64,000 nt of DNA from Spirochaeta thermophila DSM 6578 (lineage in GTDB: Bacteria; Spirochaetota; Spirochaetia; Winmispirales; Winmispiraceae), in assembly GCF_000184345.1 (NCBI RefSeq), contig NC_017583.1:806001-870000 (forward strand), in the 5' to 3' direction. This document shows, one piece after another, positions 14,638 to 41,846 of this stretch (positions are counted from its first letter, which is position 1; each line of letters begins with the position of its first letter). Under the pieces are notes generated by a model that was not told where the DNA came from, made no database searches, and saw only the letters and a list, made by a program, of their open reading frames with translations. The translations under genes and the position numbers were made by a program.

Positions 14638-17106
14638 TCAGATGAAGAGATTGATGGTGCTCCTGGATGCCGCCTCCATGTAGGTGGCAACCCCGCCTAT
14701 CTCGATGCCGTCGATGAGTTCCTCTTTCGATACACCCATCACGTCCATGGACATCTGACAGGCAACGATTCGCACGTCGGCCTCGAGGGCCGATTCTATC
14801 ATCTCCTCGAGCGATGCGATCTGCTTGGCCTTCATTCTCCCGCGCATCATCCGCGCACCCATGCCGCCGAAGTTCATCTTGGAGAGACCGAGCTTTCCTG
14901 CATGGGAGGGGAGCATCCAGGAGAAGAGTCTCCCCATGAGGTCTTTCTTCACCCGGGGCTTCTTCCGCTTCTTGATGATGTTGAGTCCCCAGAAGGTGAA
15001 GAACATGGTGGTCTTCTTCCCTGCACTCGCAGCTCCCTGGGCGAGGACGAATGCGGCGAGGGCGCGGTCGAGATTGTCGGAGAAGCAGATGATGGTAGCC
15101 CCCTCTCCCTGAGGTACGGGCTCGGTCTGGGCTCCATGGGGGCCGGCCTTCTCCACCACAGCCGTGATCACGCCGCGCTCCTGTTCCAGACTCACCAGCT
15201 TGTTACCTGTCATGGAACACCAGGCCTCTACGTCTCTCGCAAATCCGGGGTCGGTGGCCTTGAGCACGATGCGGTCGCCCGGGGAGGCCTCGTCCATGGC
15301 CTGTTTGAGACGCATGATCGGACCGGGACACTGCAGCCCGCACGCATCCACCTCGAACCTGCGCACTTCGAGCACACCCTGTCGTCCCGTGCCCCGCTGG
15401 TAGAGGATGTCGTCTTTCTCTATCACGTCGCCCTCGAAGATGTCCTCGTTGCCCTGCTTTTGGGTGACGTGCTGGTAGGTCTTGTAGCCACCTGAGAGGT
15501 TGAAAACCTCTGTGTACCCATGCTGCCTGAGGATGCGCTCCGCCACGTAGGCGCGGAAGCCCACCCCGCAGAAGACCACCACCTTCCGGTCCTTCGGGAT
15601 CTCCGCAATACGGGCCCGAAGCTGCTGTACCGGAATGTTCACCGCCCCCTCGATGGTGCCGAGGGCGTACTCCTCTGGCGTCCGCACGTCCACCAGGTAG
15701 TATTCACCTTGGGGTGCGTTGAGAATGTCGTACCAGTGGATGTGTCGGCTCTTTCCAAGAAGTACGTTCTCGGCCACGAAGCCCACGATGTTCACCGGAT
15801 CCTTTGCAGAGGAGTAGGGCGGGGCGTAGGCGTGCTCGATCTCGGTGAGCTCGACCACCGTGCCTTTACGCTGGATCACCGAGGCGAGCAGGTCGATCCG
15901 CTTGTCCACCCCCTCGTAGCCCACGATCTGGGCGCCGAGTACCCGGCCATCGTCCGGGGAGAAGACGAGCTTGATGGTCATGGGCTGGGCGCCGGGATAG
16001 TAGCCTGCGTGGGAACCCGGATGCACGATGACCGCCTGGTGGGGGATGCCTTCTTCCTTGAGGACCTTCTCGGGCATGCCCGTGGAGGCCACGGTGAGGT
16101 CGAACACCTTTGCGATGGCCGTGCCGATGGCGCCCTTGTAGGTGTACCTGTTCCCTTCGACGATGTTGTTGGCCACGATACGGCCCTGCTTGTTCGCGGG
16201 GCCCGCGAGAAAGGTGGGCATCGACTTGCCGGTGATGGGGTTGGGGAACTCGATGGCATCGCCCACGGCGTAGATGTCGGGATCAGAGGTCTGCAGGTAT
16301 TCGTTCACCTTGATGCCCCCGCGAGGACCGAGCTCGAGTCCCGCCTCCTTGGCGAGGCGGCTGTCGGGCCGCACACCGATCGAGAGGAGCACGAAGTCGC
16401 ACACCAGGGTGCGCCCGCTCTTGAGCTGTACGCGGAGCTCGTCCCCGTTGCGTTCGAAGGCGCTCACCGCATCGCCGAGGAAGAAGGCCACGTTCTTGGT
16501 CTTGAGGTGCTGGTGGACCTCGGCGGCCATCTCGAAGTCGAGCACGTTCATGACCTGGGGTGCGAGCTCAACGATGGTGACCCTGAGTCCCCGGGAGTGG
16601 AAGTTTTCGGCCATCTCGAGTCCGATGAACCCGGCCCCCACGATCACCACCCTGCGAGGCTTTTTCTCCTCGATGAAGTGTACGATGGCATCGGTATCGT
16701 CGACCGATCGCAGGGTGAAGATGCGCTCGTCGTTGATGCCGGGGATGGGGGGGCGCACCGGTTCTGCACCCGGCGAGAGGACCAGCTTGTCGTACGACTC
16801 GCGGTATTCTTCTCCGCTTTCCAGGTTGCACACCACCACCTCTTTCTTTTCCCGATCTATGAATCGCACCTCATGGCGAACCCTCACGTCAACGTTGAAC
16901 ATGGCCTTGAATGTATCTGGTGTCTGAACGAAGAGCCGCTCGCGTTCAGGGATCACCCCGCCCACGTAATAGGGGAGTCCACAGTTCGCATAGGAGATGT
17001 ACCTTCCCCGCTCAAACATGACGATCTCGGCCTCTTCGTCGACTCTCCGCAGTCTCGCTGCGGTGGTCGCTCCGCCTGCCACACCACCTACGATGAGGTA
17101 TTTCAT
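14638..17106 (-). CDS. CoA-disulfide reductase-like flavoprotein fused to rhodanese, TusA and DsrE domains
   Basis: The 822-residue protein has four domains. Residues 1-450 are an FAD/NAD(P) disulfide oxidoreductase (GGVAGGATTAARLRR; the single active Cys in ISYANCGLPYY; second dinucleotide site VVIVGAGFIGLEMAE). About 465-560 is a rhodanese with active Cys in VVVFCGVGFRAY. About 600-670 is TusA-like (VDACGLQCPGPIMRLKQ). About 690-822 is DsrE2-like (ATIICFSDNLDRALAAFVLA, Cys in VACQMSMDVMG). Such fusions pass sulfane sulfur between cysteines and reduce CoA persulfides or polysulfides with NAD(P)H. ATG 17106 follows TGGAGG. The divergent GH10 gene is unrelated. A second sulfur-relay cluster lies at 37642-41846. 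Confidence 0.93.
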   Translation of the reverse strand: MKYLIVGGVAGGATTAARLRRVDEEAEIVMFERGRYISYANCGLPYYVGGVIPERERLFVQTPDTFKAMFNVDVRVRHEVRFIDREKKEVVVCNLESGEEYRESYDKLVLSPGAEPVRPPIPGINDERIFTLRSVDDTDAIVHFIEEKKPRRVVIVGAGFIGLEMAENFHSRGLRVTIVELAPQVMNVLDFEMAAEVHQHLKTKNVAFFLGDAVSAFERNGDELRVQLKSGRTLVCDFVLLSIGVRPDSRLAKEAGLELGPRGGIKVNEYLQTSDPDIYAVGDAIEFPNPITGKSMPTFLAGPANKQGRIVANNIVEGNRYTYKGAIGTAIAKVFDLTVASTGMPEKVLKEEGIPHQAVIVHPGSHAGYYPGAQPMTIKLVFSPDDGRVLGAQIVGYEGVDKRIDLLASVIQRKGTVVELTEIEHAYAPPYSSAKDPVNIVGFVAENVLLGKSRHIHWYDILNAPQGEYYLVDVRTPEEYALGTIEGAVNIPVQQLRARIAEIPKDRKVVVFCGVGFRAYVAERILRQHGYTEVFNLSGGYKTYQHVTQKQGNEDIFEGDVIEKDDILYQRGTGRQGVLEVRRFEVDACGLQCPGPIMRLKQAMDEASPGDRIVLKATDPGFARDVEAWCSMTGNKLVSLEQERGVITAVVEKAGPHGAQTEPVPQGEGATIICFSDNLDRALAAFVLAQGAASAGKKTTMFFTFWGLNIIKKRKKPRVKKDLMGRLFSWMLPSHAGKLGLSKMNFGGMGARMMRGRMKAKQIASLEEMIESALEADVRIVACQMSMDVMGVSKEELIDGIEIGGVATYMEAASRSTINLFI

Positions 17107-33597: not shown

Positions 33598-33927
33598 ATG
33601 ACCCGCTATCGCTGTCCTACCTGTGGTATGACCTTCGAGCAGGAGGGGGTGTGTCCTATGGACGGGACACCCCTCGTACCGGCATCCGAGGGGACTCCCC
33701 GTTCGAGGGGCGGAATGGGCTCCCTTCACGAGGATGCTCCCGCGTCCCATCGGCACGATCACGGATCGTCCCCGATGCACTCTTCCCATGGCGATCACCC
33801 TGTCCACCATGAGGGACACGAGGGCCATGAGCACCACGGGGGGCCCACCGGAGAGGCCGGGCACGCGCACCATGGGGGACATGAGCACCAGGGGGGCACG
33901 ATCATGCGGAACATCACAAGGCCATGA
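33598..33927 (+). CDS. Zinc-ribbon, histidine-rich metal-binding protein
   Basis: A 109-residue protein whose N-terminus (YRCPTCGMTFEQEGVCPMDG) resembles the heavy-metal-binding domain found at the start of CopB/SilP ATPases. The rest is a long His/Gly-rich stretch (HHEGHEGHEHHGGPTGEAGH and more). ATG 33598 follows AGGGAGG. The stop overlaps the start of the CopB frame (ATGA). It may be a detached N-terminal metal domain of the ATPase, delivering copper or silver to it. Confidence 0.78.
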   Translation: MTRYRCPTCGMTFEQEGVCPMDGTPLVPASEGTPRSRGGMGSLHEDAPASHRHDHGSSPMHSSHGDHPVHHEGHEGHEHHGGPTGEAGHAHHGGHEHQGGTIMRNITRP

Positions 33928-35842
33928 TCCGCGACTTCAGGAGGAGGTTCTTCGTCTCCCTTTTCCTCACCCTTCCCATACTGGCCCTCTCGCCCCTCAT
34001 TCAGGAGGTCTTCGGCTTCTCTTTCGACCTTCCCGCTCAGGAGTACCTCCTGTGGGCCCTCTCGAGCCTTGTCTTCTTCTACGGCGGATGGCCCTTCCTC
34101 GTAGGCGGACGAGACGAGATTCGGCGCAGACAACCCGGGATGATGACCCTCATCGGCCTCGCCATCTCGGTGGCCTACGTGTACAGCACCGCGGTGGTTT
34201 TTGGGCTTTCCGGAAAGTTCTTCTTCTGGGAGCTCGCCACCCTCATCGATGTGATGCTCCTGGGGCATTGGATCGAGATGGCCTCCGTACTCGGGGCCTC
34301 ACGTGCGCTGGAGAAGCTCGCCCAACTCCTGCCTGACACCGCCCACAAGGTGGAGGGGGAGGAGGTGGTGGACGTCCGTACCTCCGAGCTTGCCACTGGT
34401 GATCTGGTGCTCGTGAAGGCGGGGGAGAAGATCCCTGCGGATGGTGAAGTGGTGAAGGGGACCAGCTATGTGAACGAGTCCATGCTCACAGGGGAGTCCG
34501 TGCCGGTGAAGAAGGGAGCCGGGGATGGGGTGATAGGTGGTTCGGTGAAGGAGATGGCGTGCTCACGGTGCGCATCACCGGTACGGGTGAAGACTCCTAT
34601 CTCCAAAAGGTGATCCACCTCGTCGAAGAAGCGCAGCGGACCAAGTCGAAGACCCAGCGGCTCGCCGATAGGGCGGCGCAGTGGCTCACCTTCATCGCCA
34701 TAGGGGCGGGATCCCTCACTTTCGTGCTCTGGATGGTCTTCACAGGGGATCTCGCTGCTGCCATCGAGCGGATGGTCACGGTGATGGTCATCACCTGCCC
34801 CCACGCCCTGGGGCTCGCCGTACCCCTGGTGGTGGCGGTCTCTACCTCGCTTTCGGCCCGCAACGGGCTTCTCATACGGAACCGCACGGCATTTGAGAAC
34901 GCGAGGAAGATCTCCACCGTGGTCTTCGACAAGACCGGCACCCTCACCGAGGGGAGGTTCGGTGTGGCAGGGGTGGCGGCCTTTGTGGGATCCGAAGAGG
35001 AGCTGCTCACCCTGGCAGCCTCGCTCGAGCGCAATTCCGAGCATCCGGTGGCGCGGGGGATAGTGGAGGAGGCCGAGAAGAGGGGCCTTGCGCCTCTCCC
35101 TGTGGAGGACTTCTACGTGAGGAAGGGCGAGGGGGTTGAGGGCGTGGTGAACGGGAGGAGGATCGCCCTCCTCAGCCGTCGCGCCCTCGAGGAGGGGGGG
35201 TACACGGTTCCCGAGACTGAGGGTTCCCACATAGGCACGCTGGTCTACGTGGTGGAGGAGGGGAAGGTGCGAGGGGCCATTGTGCTCGCCGACAGGATAC
35301 GGTCGGAGTCGCGTGAGGCGGTACGCACACTCCAGAAGAAGGGGATACGCTGCTGGATGCTCACCGGCGACAACAGAAAGGTGGCGGAGGCGGTGGCGAA
35401 GGAACTGGGGCTCGATGGGGTGTTCGCCGAGGTCCTTCCCCATGAGAAGCAGGAGAAGGTGAAGGAACTCCAGGCCAAGGGCGAGTTCGTGGCCATGACC
35501 GGAGACGGGATCAATGATGCCCCGGCGCTGGCCCAGGCGGATGTGGGGATCGCGATCGGTTCCGGCACGGACATAGCTGCAGAGACCGCCGATATCATCC
35601 TGGTACACGACAGCCCGGCGGACGTGGCGGCCTTGATAGACTTTGGACGGGCCACCTATCGGAAGATGGTGCAGAACCTCCTCTGGGCAACGGGCTACAA
35701 CGTGGTGGCGATTCCCCTCGCTGCAGGGGTCCTGTATCCCCTCACCGGTCTCCTCCTCTCGCCTGCCGTCGGGGCGGCCCTCATGTCGCTGAGTACGGTG
35801 ATCGTGGCCGTCAATGCGAGCTTCCTCAGGGTGAGGCGTTGA
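33924..35842 (+). pseudogene. copB: CopB-type P1B-3 ATPase, single-base frameshift
   Basis: The two frames together give about 635 residues of a CopB-like copper/silver ATPase. The first (33924 to about 34550) has four membrane segments and the actuator TGES loop (ESMLTGESVPVKKG). The second has the metal path CPHALG (Cys-Pro-His, the P1B-3 mark), DKTGTLTEG, HP locus SEHPVARG and MTGDGINDAPAL. At 34541-34556 the expected GGSVNGDGVLTV reads GGSVKEMAC; adding one base after GTGAA restores it. So one base is missing, by real mutation or assembly error. It is coupled to the His-rich protein by an ATGA overlap. Confidence 0.88.
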
Positions 35843-35944: not shown

Positions 35945-36566
35945 TCACTTCTCCCCGTAGGCCGCGAAGATGCTCACCGAGGCGCTCGAACACCCACATG
36001 TAGAGCTGGCACAGCAGGTCTCGTCGATGCACTCCACCCTCACGTTGCGAAGCCCCGCAGCTCTGAGCCACCGCTCCACCTCGGCCCGCTCGAACCCCAT
36101 CCAGCGGTCGTGCTGTTCGGTCCGGAGGAACTCGAACTCGTGGCTGTCGAGGTCGGTGATCACCAGCCTTCCGCCCGGCTTGAGGATGCGTGCCATCTCC
36201 TGGATGGCCCGGGGAGGGTCTTCCACGTGATACAGGTACATGTTGGCAAAGACGTAGTCCACCGACTCGTCATCGATGGGAAGGTGTGCGGCCTCACCCT
36301 GTCGGCACTCGATGAGGGCATCGGGAAACGTGCGCGCGAGCTCCTCGAGCATGGCCCTTGATTGATCCACCGCACTCACCTCCACCCCCCCTTGAAAGGA
36401 GTCCTTCGGTGATGAACCCTGTGCCGCATCCCACGTCTGCCGCCACGGTTCCTCTTGCTACTCCTGCAAGGTTGTAGGCCTTCTCCCTCACGGCCTCGGA
36501 GAAGAACTCCTTTCACATGGCATCCCACTGCGAAGCCACCTCGTCGAAATAGGCGTTACTGGACAT
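35945..36566 (-). pseudogene. SAM methyltransferase broken by stop and frameshift
   Basis: ATG 36566 has a good ribosome site (CAGGAGG), and the frame reads MSSNAYFDEVASQWDAM, then TGA (36515-36513), then KEFFSEAVREKAYNLAG and motif I VAADVGCGTGFITEGLL. A run of seven G (on -, near 36390) then shifts the frame; with six G the text continues VSAVDQSRAMLEELARTF. The rest is intact to RILKPGGRLVITDLDS and a Cys-rich end (ETCCASSTCGCSSASVS) that recalls metalloid methyltransferases. Intact relatives usually have Arg or Lys where the TGA is. Two lesions make this a pseudogene, not just a sequencing error. Confidence 0.82.
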
Positions 36567-36749
36567 GGGCTTCCTCCTGGTGTTGCTCACAGTCCCACTA
36601 TAAAGACATTCGCCTGGAGTGTATATCACCACGCAGGGGCATCGATCTCTCGCATCGTGATGTTTGTAGTCCTTATATCTTACTAAAATGCTGGATATTT
36701 TTTGCAGAAAGGATATATTTTAAGTGAATCCTCGTATGAAGGAGCGTTC

Positions 36750-37151
36750 ATGAGACGGATACCGATACTGCTCATCCTCTTCGGACTGATCGTCCTCTCC
36801 GGAGGAGCCTTGCTCACAGCCCTCGGCGCAGGAGAGGCCGCGGAGCCCGCCCCCCAGGCGGAGGAGGCCTCCCCCTCGCCTCCGGACCTTCCCTTCTACA
36901 CCATGGAGGAGGTGGCCCGCCGCGCCGAGGCCGGTGAGTGCTGGATGGTGATCCACGACAAGGTCTACGACCTCACCGAGTTCGTGGCCCGGCATCCGGG
37001 TGGCAAGGCCATACTCGAAGGCTGCGGCAAGGATGCCACCGAGCTCTTCGAGACGAGGCCCATGGGCTCGGGCACGCCCCACTCCGAGAGGGCACGGGCT
37101 CTGCTCGACCGCTATCTCATCGGTTACCTCGAGGAAGAGGAGACGCGCTGA
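36750..37151 (+). CDS. Exported cytochrome b5-like heme protein
   Basis: A 133-residue protein from ATG 36750 (GAAGGAG). It has an N-terminal signal/anchor (PILLILFGLIVLSGGALLTA), a Pro/Ala/Glu linker, and a cytochrome b5 domain (about 52-130) with FYTMEEVARRAEAGECWMVI, the heme-ligand FVARHPGGKAIL and a second His probably in GTPHSERAR. This is a bacterial b5 of the periplasmic type. The next gene overlaps by one base and encodes a two-helix membrane protein, likely a partner in electron transfer. Confidence 0.88.
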   Translation: MRRIPILLILFGLIVLSGGALLTALGAGEAAEPAPQAEEASPSPPDLPFYTMEEVARRAEAGECWMVIHDKVYDLTEFVARHPGGKAILEGCGKDATELFETRPMGSGTPHSERARALLDRYLIGYLEEEETR

Positions 37152-37363
37152 TGTTTCTCTCGATCGCCTACTACCCCATCCTTGGAAAGCCTCTCATCTT
37201 CTGGCTTGGGCTCCTGAGCATCCTCTCCCTCATCCTCACCGTGGGATTCGCCTATGCGGCGCGAAGGAGGAAGCTTCCCCTCAGATGGCACATGCGAATG
37301 GGAAAGCTCACCCTTCTGCTCGCCCTCCTCCACGGCCTCCTCGCCCTGGGAGCGTACGTGTAG
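37151..37363 (+). CDS. Small two-helix membrane protein beside cytochrome b5
   Basis: A 70-residue protein whose ATG overlaps the preceding stop (TGATG). Two hydrophobic stretches (KPLIFWLGLLSILSLILTVG and KLTLLLALLHGLLALGAYV) frame a basic loop with RRRKLPLRWHMRMG. His in the loop and second helix (HMRMG, LLHGL) could ligate heme, as in small membrane cytochrome b parts. No family recognised; coupling suggests action with the b5 protein. Confidence 0.7.
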   Translation: MFLSIAYYPILGKPLIFWLGLLSILSLILTVGFAYAARRRKLPLRWHMRMGKLTLLLALLHGLLALGAYV

Positions 37364-37641
37364 GGAGCAGGATTGTATTTTGGTTTACGAACATCTGGAA
37401 TGGTTCTTCCGAGAGAGTAGTGTGAGTCTTTCTCCAGAGTTACATCGAAGTCACTGAAGCCAGGTGAAAGAGAGCGAGGAGAATATCCTTCACAGGTTTA
37501 GGTCGGAACAGTGATCTGATAGATCGAGTCATATCATCTGAAAATCTCGTTACTCTGTACGGTCCCTTCAGATGTACTGGAAAGAAAGAGGGGCGGCCGT
37601 CCGGCCGCCCTGAATCGTCCTCTGGGCCCCGCAGAGAGGAA
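37364..37641. other. 278-base gap with a - strand terminator
   Basis: No gene is seen. GGGCGGCCG and CGGCCGCCC at 37591-37610 form a strong stem; on - it is followed by CTCTTTCTTTCC and ends the sulfur-relay operon 30 bases after the gcvH-like stop. Confidence 0.75.
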
Positions 37642-37995
37642 TCAGACGGGAGGATCCTCGTCGAGAAGATCGTCCAGTTCCTTGGGGTCTTCGATTTCGA
37701 GTACCGCGATCCACCCCTCGCCCTCAGGGTCGCTGCTGAGGAGTTCGAGGTTCTCCCGAAGTGCTCCGTTGATCTCCACGATGGTGCCGCTTACGGGGGC
37801 CTTCACCTCCTGGGTCGCCTTCACCGATTCCACGGTGGCGATGATCTCGCCTTTTTTCAATGTGCGTCCCGCTTCGGGAAGCTCGATGGCCACCAGGTCT
37901 CCCAGTTCTTCGGCCCCTGCGGAGGTGATACCCACCTTCCCTTTAGGTCCTTCCACTACGATGTACTCGTGATCGTTCGTGTATTTCTTTATCAC
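37642..37995 (-). CDS. GcvH-like lipoyl carrier protein in sulfur operon
   Basis: A 117-residue protein of the glycine cleavage H family. The lipoyl-Lys site is ATVESVKATQEVKAPVSG (Lys near 59). HEYIVVEG replaces the usual HEW start, and DPEGEGWI matches the end pattern. No gcvT or gcvP is next to it; instead it is last of six genes encoding thiosulfate uptake and DsrE/F/H-type sulfur carriers. The divergent gene encodes a dihydrolipoyl dehydrogenase. Established parallel: LbpA lipoyl proteins of sHdr sulfur oxidisers. A role as dithiol sulfur carrier or reductant is inference; ordinary GcvH is the alternative. Confidence 0.88.
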   Translation of the reverse strand: MIKKYTNDHEYIVVEGPKGKVGITSAGAEELGDLVAIELPEAGRTLKKGEIIATVESVKATQEVKAPVSGTIVEINGALRENLELLSSDPEGEGWIAVLEIEDPKELDDLLDEDPPV

Positions 37996-38005
37996 TTCGT
38001 TTCTC

Positions 38006-38272
38006 CTAGCTTATGATGTTTCCCTGCTGGAAGATGAGGTCGACCAGTCCGCCGTAGTCCACACACCGGGGAGCAATGTGTTCTCCATAGCCTCTGGCTA
38101 CGAGATCCTCTTTCAATACATAGACAGAGCCTTTCGTAGGGACGGGCTCGCCCTGCACCACCCAGTAGATCCCGTCCTGGATGAGCACCACCACGTCTTC
38201 TTCAGTGGCGCACTCCAGTTTGACCTGATCTTCTTTGTGTTCCGGTCCGTGTTTCACCAGAATGAGTGCCAT
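38006..38272 (-). CDS. DsrH/TusB-like sulfur-relay protein
   Basis: An 88-residue protein resembling the smallest subunit of the DsrEFH/TusBCD hexamer. The start MALILVKHGPEHKEDQVKLE and the strand DVVVLIQDGIYWVVQG fit DsrH. Its one Cys (IAPRCVDYGGLVDLI, about residue 69) may be the active one. It lies 16 bases after the DsrF-like gene and 10 before the gcvH-like gene. Confidence 0.78.
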   Translation of the reverse strand: MALILVKHGPEHKEDQVKLECATEEDVVVLIQDGIYWVVQGEPVPTKGSVYVLKEDLVARGYGEHIAPRCVDYGGLVDLIFQQGNIIS

Positions 38273-38287
38273 GTGTTCCCCCTTTCC

Positions 38288-38644
38288 TCACATCCAGATC
38301 ACGAAGTTGTGTTCGTGAAAGAGCTTTGAGAGATGCTCTTTGCTCACCAACGTGACGGGATACCCCTCATCCAGATTCTCCACTCGGTATGCCGAGAGAT
38401 CCTCTTTTACTGCGTAGAGCTGAGTCCCGAACCGGTTGAGCTGCTTCTGTGCGAGGGAGCAGGGGAGGAGTCCCACCTTGTCCGGCGCAAGGGCTGCATT
38501 GAGCGCCGCCACCGCCCTGTCCAGGAGAAGCACGGAGGGTTCTAAGTCGTCACCGGCGTACATGCCGAGGGCGGTGCGGAACGCCTCGTTCACCCATATG
38601 GTTCCTACCGGCGCATGATGCACCACGAACAGTATCTTCTTCAT
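38288..38644 (-). CDS. DsrF/TusC-like sulfur-relay protein
   Basis: A 118-residue DsrE-superfamily protein. MKKILFVVHHAPVGTIWVNE and ALGMYAGDDLEPSVLLLDRA are the strand-helix units of the fold; the C-terminus LSKLFHEHNFVIWM is typical of DsrF-like members. DsrF subunits are structural and lack the main sulfur-binding Cys; here the single Cys is in LLPCSLAQKQ. It is 12 bases after the dsrE-like gene. Confidence 0.8.
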   Translation of the reverse strand: MKKILFVVHHAPVGTIWVNEAFRTALGMYAGDDLEPSVLLLDRAVAALNAALAPDKVGLLPCSLAQKQLNRFGTQLYAVKEDLSAYRVENLDEGYPVTLVSKEHLSKLFHEHNFVIWM

Positions 38645-38656
38645 CGCTTTCCTCCC

Positions 38657-39013
38657 CTATGGACTGAGACTGATGAAACGATCAGACGTGGTGATGAGCT
38701 CTGCAAGACCCGGAAGCCCCGACGGAGACGAGCCCTCTATGATATCCTCCACCCTGAGCCCTCGATACTCCATACAGAGCGAGCAGATCTGCACATCGAG
38801 TCCCTTCTCCTGGATGAGATTCTGAAGCTTCATCGGAATGTTCCTGTCGATCTTCATGGGCTTCACGTGCTTCGAGGTGGCGAGGACGGCATCGGCGAAG
38901 AGGAAGATGGTCACCTCGTGGCCTTTCTCCAGGGCAGCCTCGGCGATATGGATCGCTGTGTCCATGTCCTCGTAGCTGTACGGCGGAGCGATGACCTGAA
39001 TGGTGAGTTTCAT
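38657..39013 (-). CDS. DsrE/TusD-like sulfur-transfer protein
   Basis: A 118-residue protein from ATG 39013 after AGGAGGTAGG. KLTIQVIAPPYSYEDMDTAI, then EAALEKGHEVTIFLFADAV is the DsrE fold. The active Cys is likely in VQICSLCMEYRGL, at the place of the DsrE/TusD persulfide Cys. It should accept sulfur from the TusA-like TsuB and pass it on. It begins 5 bases after the tsuA stop. Confidence 0.85.
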   Translation of the reverse strand: MKLTIQVIAPPYSYEDMDTAIHIAEAALEKGHEVTIFLFADAVLATSKHVKPMKIDRNIPMKLQNLIQEKGLDVQICSLCMEYRGLRVEDIIEGSSPSGLPGLAELITTSDRFISLSP

Positions 39014-39018
39014 CCCGC

Positions 39019-40011
39019 CTACCTCCTGAAGAGGATCCATGCCATGGTCCAGTTGCCGAGGATGAAGAAGATGGAAGCGAGCCAGGAGGAGAGTGCGAGC
39101 TGCGGTACACCGGTGAGGAAGTGACCGATGTTACACCCTCCGGCGGTGACCGCCCCTATGCCCATGAGGAGTCCGCCGATACCCACCTGGAGGTAGGTCA
39201 CAGGGTTCTTCGGCATGCGCAGCTTGAACTCGCCGGCCACTGCGGCGGCCACTCCTGCACCCAGAATGATTCCCACGATCTCGAGTCCCTCCCAGTTGAG
39301 GGGGCTGTTGGTGAGGAAACCCTGGAAGAGGTTGATCCATCCGCCGGTGATCCCGAGTCCGTACTTCCGTCCGGAGAGGGTGCTGGTGATGAACCCGAGG
39401 CCTGCGACGAGGGCGAGACAGACGCTTGCGATCTTCCAGTTGAACTTCGTCTCTCGGGAGGTGGTCTTCGTGCCGAACGCCCACAAGATGAAGAGGGCTG
39501 CGATCACCAAAGCGGGGATCCATGGGTTCAGGCCGAGGACGCTCGAGATGGTGGGACCTGCGCCTTTCACATAGTAGGCCGATTCTTCCACGGAGAGTGG
39601 TGACTTGAACTGCCCCACCCAGGAGAGCCACCATGAGAATGCGCCGCTCTTGGTGGCATAGGCGCCGAGGCCGTAGAAGAGGGCGGCGAACCAGGCGGTG
39701 GTGAGTCCTTCACCCACGCGGTAGGTCACGCCCGAGGCGCACCCGCCTGCGAGTACCATGCCGAGGCCGAAGACGAATCCTCCTATGATGTTCCCCACCA
39801 GGTTGAGAGGCTTGGGGTTCATCTGCATGAGTCCCACCTGTGAAAGGAGGACGAAGAGTATCATTTCAAGGGCGAGAGTGAATACCGCGAGCTTGAAGAG
39901 ATAGTTGTCCTTGAAGAGGAGCACGTCCCTGAAGGCGGAATTGAAGCAGATACGCCCTCGTTGGAGAACTATCCCGAAGAGGAATCCGACCAGAAGTCCT
40001 GTCCAGATCAT
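39019..40011 (-). CDS. tsuA: Thiosulfate transporter TsuA (YeeE/YedE family)
   Basis: A 330-residue inner-membrane protein that brings thiosulfate into the cell. The three cysteines needed for relay of the substrate are at positions 22 (QRGRICFNSAF), 91 (LAGGCASG) and 293 (TAGGCNIGHF), the same numbers I recall for the crystallised S. thermophila YeeE. About nine membrane helices and the pseudo-twofold GGC-containing loops are evident. It follows tsuB by 14 bases; TsuB is its cytosolic partner. ATG 40011 is preceded by AGGAG. Confidence 0.96.
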   Translation of the reverse strand: MIWTGLLVGFLFGIVLQRGRICFNSAFRDVLLFKDNYLFKLAVFTLALEMILFVLLSQVGLMQMNPKPLNLVGNIIGGFVFGLGMVLAGGCASGVTYRVGEGLTTAWFAALFYGLGAYATKSGAFSWWLSWVGQFKSPLSVEESAYYVKGAGPTISSVLGLNPWIPALVIAALFILWAFGTKTTSRETKFNWKIASVCLALVAGLGFITSTLSGRKYGLGITGGWINLFQGFLTNSPLNWEGLEIVGIILGAGVAAAVAGEFKLRMPKNPVTYLQVGIGGLLMGIGAVTAGGCNIGHFLTGVPQLALSSWLASIFFILGNWTMAWILFRR

Positions 40012-40025
40012 ACGTATCTCCTAGG

Positions 40026-40268
40026 TTATTTCTTCACTTTGATGTAGATGTTCCATTCACCGGGGGCGGCTTCCTCGATTTCCAGCACCTCGCTCCCCAG
40101 CTTCTTCACTGTTTCCGGGATCCTTTCTTTCGAGAGAGGATAGTCGATGCGGACGAGGATGATCTCCCCGTCGTTTGCTGACTGCACGGCCCGCTTCGCC
40201 TCCACGTCGGGGATGGGGCACACTTCACCTCTCACGTCGATTTCCTTGCTGACCTGGTAGTTCGCCAT
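40026..40268 (-). CDS. tsuB: TsuB, TusA-like sulfur carrier for thiosulfate uptake
   Basis: An 80-residue protein of the TusA fold. The start VSKEIDVRGEVCPIPDVEAK holds the CPxP motif with Cys17, which forms the persulfide or thiosulfonate. It is the first gene of the operon, 14 bases before tsuA. TsuB-type proteins receive the sulfur of thiosulfate at the cytosolic face of TsuA. ATG 40268 follows TAGGAGG, and the promoter at 40301-40328 lies just upstream. Confidence 0.94.
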   Translation of the reverse strand: MANYQVSKEIDVRGEVCPIPDVEAKRAVQSANDGEIILVRIDYPLSKERIPETVKKLGSEVLEIEEAAPGEWNIYIKVKK

Positions 40269-40300
40269 AGATCCTCCTATAGGATTGATGGTATACGATG

Positions 40301-40328
40301 ATTATACCTCATCTATGATATCAGTCAA
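40301..40328 (-). promoter_or_regulatory. Promoter of tsuB-tsuA-dsr-gcvH operon
   Basis: On - TTGACT (40328-40323) and TATAAT (40306-40301) are 16 bp apart, 33 bases before the tsuB ATG. Confidence 0.8.
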
Positions 40329-40397
40329 GAAATATTTATAATTTGGTGATGTATATGAAAATATGTATATATTCTGTATAAATCGGCTCTTTCGTGC

Positions 40398-40426
40398 TTG
40401 TTATTCCCGGATTCACGTAGTATCTT
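40398..40426 (+). promoter_or_regulatory. Promoter of dihydrolipoyl dehydrogenase gene
   Basis: TTGTTA (40398-40403) and TATCTT (40421-40426), 17 bp apart, lie 32 bases before ATG 40458 and are divergent from the tsuB promoter. Confidence 0.6.
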
Positions 40427-40457
40427 GAACACACAATACTCATGCACGGGAGGTTCC

Positions 40458-41846
40458 ATGTCCTATCAATATGATCTCGTGGTCCTGGGAAGCGGTCCCG
40501 GGGGGTATGTGGCTGCCATACGGGCATCCCAGCTCGGCCTCAAGGCCGCAGTGGTGGAGAAGGACAAGCTCGGCGGTGTGTGTCTCAACATAGGGTGCAT
40601 TCCTTCGAAGGCCCTCATCCACATGGCCACCCTCTACCGGCAGGCCCAGGAGACCCTCTCCCGGACCGGGGTGAAGGTGGATACCTCCGGGTTCGACTAC
40701 GAGAAGGTCTTCTCCTACTCGCGACAGGTGGCGGACAGGCTCAGCAAGGGGGTGCAGTACCTCCTCAAGAAGAACAAGGTGGATGTGATCACAGGGGAAG
40801 GGGTGCTGGAGGATCCCCACACCGTGCGTGTGGGTGATGCCCGCTACACCGGCAAGTTCGTCCTTGTTGCCACGGGCTCCTCGCCCCGGAGCATCCCCGG
40901 ATTCGAGATCGACGAGCTGGTGGTGCTCTCGTCCACCGGGGCCCTCATGCTCAAGGAACTGCCGACGCGCATCATCATCCTGGGTGGTGGAGCGATTGGG
41001 ATGGAGTTCGCCTACGTCTTCAGCAGCTTCGGCGTACAGGTGACGGTGGTGGAGATGCTCGATCAGGTGCTGCCCTTCATGGACCACGAGGTGGTCGAGG
41101 TGCTCGTGAAGGACTTTTCCAAGCGGGGGATCACCATCCTCACCTCCTCGAAGGCCACCTCTCTTGTGAAGACTGAGAGTGGTGTAGTCCTCACGGTGGA
41201 AGGGGCTTCGGGCAGGCAAGAACTTCAAGCGGAGAAGCTCCTCGTCTCCATAGGTCGGGCTCCCAACACCAGGGGCATCGGCCTCGAGGAGATAGGGGTG
41301 CAGCTCGATGAGCGGGGATTCGTGAAGGTGGGCGACTACTACCAGACGGCGGTGGAGGGGGTGTACGCCATTGGCGACATCCTGCCTACGCCGCAGCTCG
41401 CCCACGTGGCTTCCAAGGAGGGCGAGATCGCGGTGCTCCACATGGCGGGCAGGCCCAAGGAGAAGGTGTTGCCCCAGGAGGAGATCCCCTCCGCGGTGTA
41501 TACCGAGCCCCAGGTGGCCGGCTTCGGCCTCACAGAGAAGGAGGCGAAGGAGAAGGGTCTCTCCTACAAGACCGCGGTCTTCCCCTTCAGGGGAGTGGGC
41601 AAGGCGGTGGCCGTGGGAGAGGTAGACGGGTTCGTGAAGCTCGTATACGATCCGGAAACTGAAGAGATCCTGGGTGCCTTCATCGTGGGACCCGAGGCGA
41701 CCGAGCTCGTCCACGAGCTCCTCCTCGCGAAGCGGAGCGAGCTCCTCCTCGACGACATATCACACATGGTACACGCCCATCCCACCCTCTCGGAGGGGGT
41801 CATGGAGGCGGCCCGCATGGCCCAGGGCTGGGCCATCCACGTCTAG
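40458..41846 (+). CDS. lpdA: Dihydrolipoyl dehydrogenase
   Basis: A 462-residue FAD disulfide reductase that reoxidises dihydrolipoyl groups with NAD. FAD site LVVLGSGPGGYVAAIRASQL; redox pair GGVCLNIGCIPSKAL (CxxxxC); NAD site IIILGGGAIGMEFAYVF; C-terminal active base His-x-x-x-x-Glu in MVHAHPTLSEGVMEAA. ATG 40458 follows CGGGAGG. It is alone on + and ends at a terminator; no 2-oxo-acid dehydrogenase genes are nearby. Opposite it is the operon with the GcvH-like lipoyl carrier, its likely partner. Confidence 0.95.
   Translation: MSYQYDLVVLGSGPGGYVAAIRASQLGLKAAVVEKDKLGGVCLNIGCIPSKALIHMATLYRQAQETLSRTGVKVDTSGFDYEKVFSYSRQVADRLSKGVQYLLKKNKVDVITGEGVLEDPHTVRVGDARYTGKFVLVATGSSPRSIPGFEIDELVVLSSTGALMLKELPTRIIILGGGAIGMEFAYVFSSFGVQVTVVEMLDQVLPFMDHEVVEVLVKDFSKRGITILTSSKATSLVKTESGVVLTVEGASGRQELQAEKLLVSIGRAPNTRGIGLEEIGVQLDERGFVKVGDYYQTAVEGVYAIGDILPTPQLAHVASKEGEIAVLHMAGRPKEKVLPQEEIPSAVYTEPQVAGFGLTEKEAKEKGLSYKTAVFPFRGVGKAVAVGEVDGFVKLVYDPETEEILGAFIVGPEATELVHELLLAKRSELLLDDISHMVHAHPTLSEGVMEAARMAQGWAIHV

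Follow-up and report, generated by a model that had tools for sequence, protein, structure and literature searches.

The chromosome of the thermophilic spirochaete Spirochaeta thermophila DSM 6578, a species now called Winmispira thermophila (one contig, 2,560,222 bp), was analysed between positions 806001 and 870000, and this 64,000-nucleotide stretch, referred to as the window, carries a six-gene operon, tsuB-tsuA-dsrE-dsrF-dsrH-gcvH2, in which genes for thiosulfate uptake and a putative sulfur relay are followed by a gene for an H-protein-like lipoyl carrier (GcvH2). A divergent dihydrolipoyl dehydrogenase gene, lpd, lies next to it. We tentatively propose that this is a horizontally acquired thiosulfate-utilisation operon in which lipoyl-GcvH2 would be the final acceptor or reductant, recycled by Lpd and NADH; this reading appears quite possible, though short of probable. 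A related formulation is offered with somewhat greater reserve: a glycine-cleavage-type H protein would have become the terminal, lipoyl-based reductant in a TsuA-TsuB-DsrEFH-GcvH2 relay for imported thiosulfate that takes NADH electrons through a shared Lpd, and would thus be a reductive, cysteine-free counterpart of the oxidative LbpA system. The features concerned, in window coordinates, are as follows.

40026..40268, minus strand: tsuB (YeeD), TusA-family sulfurtransferase, 80 aa, CPxP Cys17
39019..40011, minus strand: tsuA (YeeE), thiosulfate transporter, 330 aa
38657..39013, minus strand: dsrE, 118 aa from the ATG at 39013 (PF02635, 2.4e-21; 2hy5_A, 1.2e-10)
38288..38644, minus strand: dsrF/tusC-like gene, 118 aa (TIGR03010, 5.8e-6; 2hy5_B, E 0.18; operon position)
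38006..38272, minus strand: dsrH/tusB-like gene, 88 aa (TIGR03011, 58.3 bits, cut-off 49.2; TM0979, 2.4e-15)
37642..37995, minus strand: gcvH2, H-protein-like lipoyl carrier, 117 aa, lipoyl Lys59 in ESVK
40458..41846, plus strand: lpd, dihydrolipoyl dehydrogenase (E3) (TIGR01350, 553.5 bits, cut-off 408.8)
40301..40328, minus strand: promoter-like site TTGACT-16-TATAAT, 11 of 12 consensus matches, preceding tsuB
37591..37610, minus strand: rho-independent terminator after gcvH2, 8 GC pairs and then a T-rich tail
37364..40394, no strand: inserted block relative to the sister genome G006 and the sister genus, right edge approximate
14638..17106, minus strand: CoA-disulfide reductase/rhodanese/TusA/DsrE2 fusion, 822 aa

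The six operon genes and lpd were all found intact at the places where they had first been annotated. The gaps from tsuB through tsuA, dsrE, dsrF and dsrH to gcvH2 were 14, 5, 12, 15 and 10 nt, respectively, and gcvH2 itself is an intact open reading frame with a good ribosome-binding site. The tight spacing behind one promoter that was described in the first-pass annotation was thereby borne out, with gaps of 5-15 nt, the TTGACT-16-TATAAT site in front and the terminator behind. The genes from tsuB to gcvH2 appear to form one transcription unit running from the promoter-like site to the terminator.

TsuA exceeded the NF052577 cut-off (559.6 versus 400 bits) and was aligned over its whole length with the crystallised S. 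thermophila protein (6leo, 8j4c). TsuB was identical to the S. thermophila YeeD of 8j4c at 80 of 80 residues, contained the CPxP cysteine, and strongly matched Thermotoga maritima TM0983 (1jdq, 8e-35). Cys77 of DsrE was aligned with the active Cys78 of Allochromatium vinosum DsrE. The weakest family assignment was that of DsrF, which scored 26.3 bits against a TIGR03010 cut-off of 94.15 and matched 2hy5_B weakly. Outside the species, the closest solved homologues of both TsuB and DsrH were T. maritima proteins. For these same TsuA and TsuB proteins, it has been reported that TsuA transports thiosulfate, that TsuB binds thiosulfate through Cys17, and that, in the presence of an artificial reductant, persulfide and H2S are formed; the authors describe both the route of electrons in thiosulfate breakdown and the proteins that accept sulfur from TsuB as unknown (PMC11073785). 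Sulfur transfer from TusA to type II DsrEFH has been shown in other systems (PMC13293266).

GcvH2 matched PF01597 at 117.8 bits and passed the cut-off of the broader NF002270 subfamily (130 versus 117), but fell below that of the gcvH equivalog TIGR00527 (108.4 versus 115.85 bits), for which a second H protein of the genome, GcvH1, scored 149.5. The lipoyl-lysine motif (ESVK, Lys59) and the H-protein fold are retained; the predicted structure (pLDDT 95) had a TM-score of 0.95 to the T. maritima H protein 1zko, and the nearest true H protein was T. maritima GcvH, with 53-54% identity. Against a balanced H-protein set, GcvH2 deviated at 6 of 23 near-invariant positions, the highest value in the set, compared with 4 of 25 for the next highest and 1 for GcvH1. 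Among the changes, HEY replaces HEW, SAGA replaces the DxAQ motif, LSS replaces LVN and, directly after the lipoyl lysine, QEVK replaces SDVY. In addition, GcvH2 contains no cysteine, and its C-terminus is short. Against the GcvH-L family TIGR03077, it scored 71.8 bits, below the cut-off of 144.05, with 28% identity. In a tree that contained no LbpA sequence, GcvH2 formed a long branch weakly joined to T. maritima GcvH (support 85/26).

The GDC-P domain of the glycine-cleavage P protein had no match in the complete genome, and it was found in 10 of 14 control genomes. Similarly, DsrC/TusE (PF04358) was not matched in the genome (among the 14 control genomes, only that of Escherichia coli has it), and no CCG domain, characteristic of HdrB/sHdrB/DsrK-type subunits, was present in it, which confirmed the reported absence of sHdr. 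Because GDC-P, DsrC/TusE and the CCG domain are all lacking, a glycine-cleavage role is unavailable, and so is the acceptor that DsrEFH usually has. A glycine-cleavage role of GcvH2 was thus ruled out by the missing GDC-P, LbpA/sHdr membership by the missing cysteines and CCG protein, and a DsrC-dependent relay by the missing DsrC/TusE. Judged from its sequence and from the gene content of the genome, GcvH2 can be taken neither for a functional H protein of glycine cleavage nor for an LbpA. The question raised at first, of whether it groups with true H proteins of a glycine cleavage system, received a divided answer, because true H proteins are indeed what it most resembles (T. maritima, 53-54%) whereas no glycine cleavage system exists here. 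Lipoylation would be possible, since LipA, LipB and the lipoate ligase LplA are encoded in the genome; lipoate ligases were found with PF21948, and the matches to PF03099 were BirA-like proteins only.

GcvH1, which is 43-45% identical to GcvH2, is likewise without its textbook partner, as there is no P protein in its own genome. This orphan gene lies close to the chromosome start, with yidC and jag as neighbours (contig near 7467-7799; L002 1480-1866). GcvH1 is present in G006 and in the sister genus, and G006 has GcvH1 only and no GcvH2. A GcvH at a coordinate similar to that of GcvH1 was seen in the genomes G006, G126 and G200.

Alignment with G006, a sister genome of the same genus (2,472,645 bp), matched the window up to 37363 and again from 40446, with 82 bp there versus 3,082 bp here; homology upstream of lpd resumes near 40395, the approximate right edge of the block. 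In G138, from another genus within the family, the genes that flank the operon here are separated instead by an unrelated short-chain dehydrogenase gene. The coding GC content of the operon genes was 54-60%, compared with 62.8% in lpd. These results suggest that the tsu-gcvH2 block is a lineage-specific insertion beside a pre-existing lpd, with gain as the simplest history. Loss of the operon in the sister instead of gain here was considered less parsimonious, because the sister genus is also without it. Most likely gcvH2 travelled with the sulfur genes, a linkage seen in one genome. The earlier view that gcvH2 belongs with the sulfur operon was upheld, as it lies in the same transcription unit and the same inserted block and has no P protein to serve.

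On the other hand, the suggestion that lpd is a dedicated partner of GcvH2 could not be maintained. It is the only Lpd of the genome, two E1-E2 operons elsewhere in the genome carry E3-binding domains and no E3 gene, and its identity is 94% in G006 and 69% in G138, both of which lack the tsu operon. Because it is the sole E3, needed by two pyruvate dehydrogenase (PDH)-type operons and conserved in relatives without the tsu operon, lpd is by all genomic indications the housekeeping E3, serving 2-oxo-acid dehydrogenases whatever else it does, and a dedicated lpd-gcvH2 pair was rejected. The same operons qualify the statement that no 2-oxo-acid dehydrogenase genes accompany the cluster, which is true locally but not for the genome. 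The divergent gene had been correctly named as a dihydrolipoyl dehydrogenase (TIGR01350); its start is corrected to the ATG at 40458. The approximately 65 bp directly in front of this start align with the corresponding region of G006, and lpd therefore probably retains its own ancestral promoter. Since this homology begins at about 40395, the inserted block would bring a promoter of its own while lpd retains the old one.

In the mechanism that we propose, TsuA would import thiosulfate and deliver it to Cys17 of TsuB, with sulfite released and the persulfide kept, as others have found in vitro (PMC11073785). By homology, the sulfur could then be passed from TsuB to Cys77 of DsrE within a DsrEFH complex. 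The dihydrolipoyl dithiol of GcvH2 would reduce the persulfide to sulfide and become a cyclic disulfide, its lipoyl arm standing in place of the missing DsrC/TusE. Finally, the housekeeping Lpd, shared with the two PDH-type complexes, would re-reduce the lipoyl group of GcvH2 with NADH. The net conversion of thiosulfate and NADH to sulfide and sulfite might serve sulfur assimilation or act as a fermentative electron sink. We infer the lipoyl step from gene order, the absence of alternatives and chemistry. Reduction of the sulfane sulfur of TsuB or DsrE by a dihydrolipoyl group would be consistent, by analogy, with the chemistry of rhodanese, which reduces thiosulfate with dihydrolipoate according to the passage of PMC6067878 that cites Villarejo & Westley 1963 and Silver & Kelly 1976. 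The same chemistry would also suit the open electron-route question of the TsuA/TsuB study (PMC11073785). Furthermore, T. maritima carries out NADH-driven thiosulfate reduction, and its flavoprotein NSR has NADH thiosulfate reductase activity (PMC9431562).

Several points weigh against this proposal. For thiosulfate reduction, T. maritima combines a related yeeE/dsrE/tusA unit with the flavoprotein NSR (PMC9431562). The CoADR-rhodanese-TusA-DsrE2 fusion at 14638-17106 could alone be capable of the reduction, lpd is a housekeeping E3, and any lipoyl function could be shared or taken over by GcvH1. The arrangement is known from one genome and is absent in the other spirochaetes sampled. The potentials of lipoamide, NAD and the reduction of thiosulfate to sulfide and sulfite are near -0.29, -0.32 and -0.40 V, respectively. 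With these values the net reaction is uphill under standard conditions, and removal of the products by assimilation or export would be needed.

The fusion leads to a somewhat less likely alternative, namely that the operon only imports and splits thiosulfate, that the fusion or small thiols reduce the sulfane sulfur, and that GcvH2 is a spare lipoyl carrier or a relay in lipoate assembly. By its domains, the 822-aa protein, encoded about 20 kb from the operon, is likely an NADH-dependent sulfane or polysulfide reductase. It has the right domains for such a role, is the only other Pyr_redox_dim protein in the genome besides Lpd, and has apparent orthologues in G006 and G138; the NADH thiosulfate reductase activity of T. 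maritima NSR (PMC9431562) points in the same direction. However, the fusion is older than the operon and unlinked to it. As for a spare carrier, human structures show H protein as a substrate of LipA (8ugo), and an orphan GcvH1 without GDC-P already exists in the genome; yet GcvH1 already serves as a general lipoyl carrier, and gcvH2 lies tightly inside the unit with which it arrived. It is improbable that gcvH2 is a passenger without sulfur function, a gene for a glycine-cleavage H protein that merely came along with the transferred block. In both sequence and fold its product comes nearest to true H proteins, such as those of T. maritima (53-54%) and of Sphingomonas (encoded beside gcvT and gcvP), and no further genome with a gcvH-tsu linkage was found, but the frame is intact, with its ribosome-binding site, the short gap to dsrH and the terminator behind it. 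The record divergence from the consensus looks like re-purposing, although decay would give the same pattern.

Even less credence is given to the idea that the operon feeds cofactor or tRNA thiolation, with GcvH2 as an octanoylated LipA substrate and thiosulfate sulfur directed to lipoate or iron-sulfur clusters. The E. coli TusBCD homologues relay sulfur to tRNA thiolation, which speaks for it, and so do the presence of LipA and LipB and the use of H protein by LipA (8ugo); the genome is without TusE, though, and lipoyl proteins are made by the sister genome even though it lacks the operon. It also counts against this idea that LipA draws sulfur from its own iron-sulfur cluster. Very improbable, finally, is an oxidative LbpA-like sulfur carrier from which Lpd passes electrons to NAD. 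The GcvH-like LbpA is essential for sulfur oxidation by sHdr, and archaeal sHdr clusters carry lpd (PMC6067878), whereas here CCG-domain proteins and DsrC are missing from the genome, the LbpA cysteines are missing from GcvH2, and the loci examined showed no sulfur-oxidising enzyme.

The operon and its H protein were compared with known systems. The T. maritima unit (TM0979, TM0983 and neighbours) likewise has TusA, YeeE and DsrE-family genes together, whereas the reductase there is the flavoprotein NSR. To our knowledge, this unit has no gcvH. It is induced 42.6-fold by thiosulfate (PMC9431562). TsuA-TsuB (YeeE-YeeD) of E. coli belongs to the same transporter family with the same TusA-like partner, which is essential for use, but the described operon (yeeE, yeeD) has neither dsrEFH nor a lipoyl gene. 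In the YTD/dsrEFH type II clusters of cable bacteria and sulfur disproportionators, the same synteny of yeeE, tusA and dsrEFH is seen (PMC13293266); their acceptor is DsrC feeding DsrAB, in contrast to S. thermophila, which has no DsrC or CCG protein and a lipoyl protein gene after dsrH. The text of PMC13293266 on YTD clusters has no word starting with "lipo". LbpA of the sHdr pathway is also a GcvH-like lipoyl protein of sulfur metabolism, with lpd linked in archaea, but LbpA combines two conserved cysteines with an sHdr complex (PMC6067878), neither of which is found with GcvH2 in S. thermophila. GcvH of glycine cleavage shares the fold, the lipoyl-lysine motif and about 50% identity with GcvH2; it differs in that GcvH2 has lost near-invariant residues, misses the equivalog cut-off, has a shortened C-terminus and occurs in a genome without P protein. 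GcvH-L of SirTM/macrodomain operons (TIGR03077, 5a35) is another H-like protein outside glycine cleavage, but no macrodomain or SirTM gene was recognised next to GcvH2.

The S. thermophila operon may be described as a thiosulfate-uptake cluster of a known kind to which a lipoyl protein has been added. Its gene order, in the same organism as the assayed TsuA and TsuB, gives four small, readily expressed acceptor candidates, one of which has a redox cofactor, and GcvH2 is a concrete candidate for the acceptor of electrons or sulfur that is still missing from bacterial thiosulfate uptake. If the proposal is true, lipoate would act in reductive sulfur metabolism besides 2-oxo-acid, glycine and sHdr chemistry, the electron route of TsuB would have an answer, and the orphan H proteins that often bear the label "glycine cleavage" where no such system is encoded would acquire a testable function.

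Among 393 spirochaete genomes searched, no other genome had this TsuA type above the cut-off, and the arrangement, for which conservation in relatives had been named as a check, was absent from every other spirochaete sampled. Three other spirochaetes (L092, L093 and L094) have a TsuA homologue with approximately 32% identity, without dsrEFH or gcvH beside it; in L092, a TusA-like gene lies near. Because the insertion is recent, relatives of the arrangement would have to be looked for in other phyla. Viral contig scans gave no match, plasmid searches gave distant TsuA and TusA only, and a literature search gave no report linking gcvH with tsuA. A genome scan centred on gcvH returned Alphaproteobacterial H proteins, and the one locus examined (L006) is flanked by gcvT and gcvP.

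Near the operon, a P-type metal ATPase gene (window 33598-35842, plus strand) is broken across three reading frames; G006 carries the same ATPase as one 762-aa open reading frame (L137 12081-14369). An S-adenosylmethionine-dependent methyltransferase gene (window 35945-36491, minus strand) is apparently split over two frames. Next to lpd (window 36702-37363, plus strand), a protein with a cytochrome b5 domain and a membrane protein of 70 aa are encoded, and both G006 and the sister genus have conserved them.

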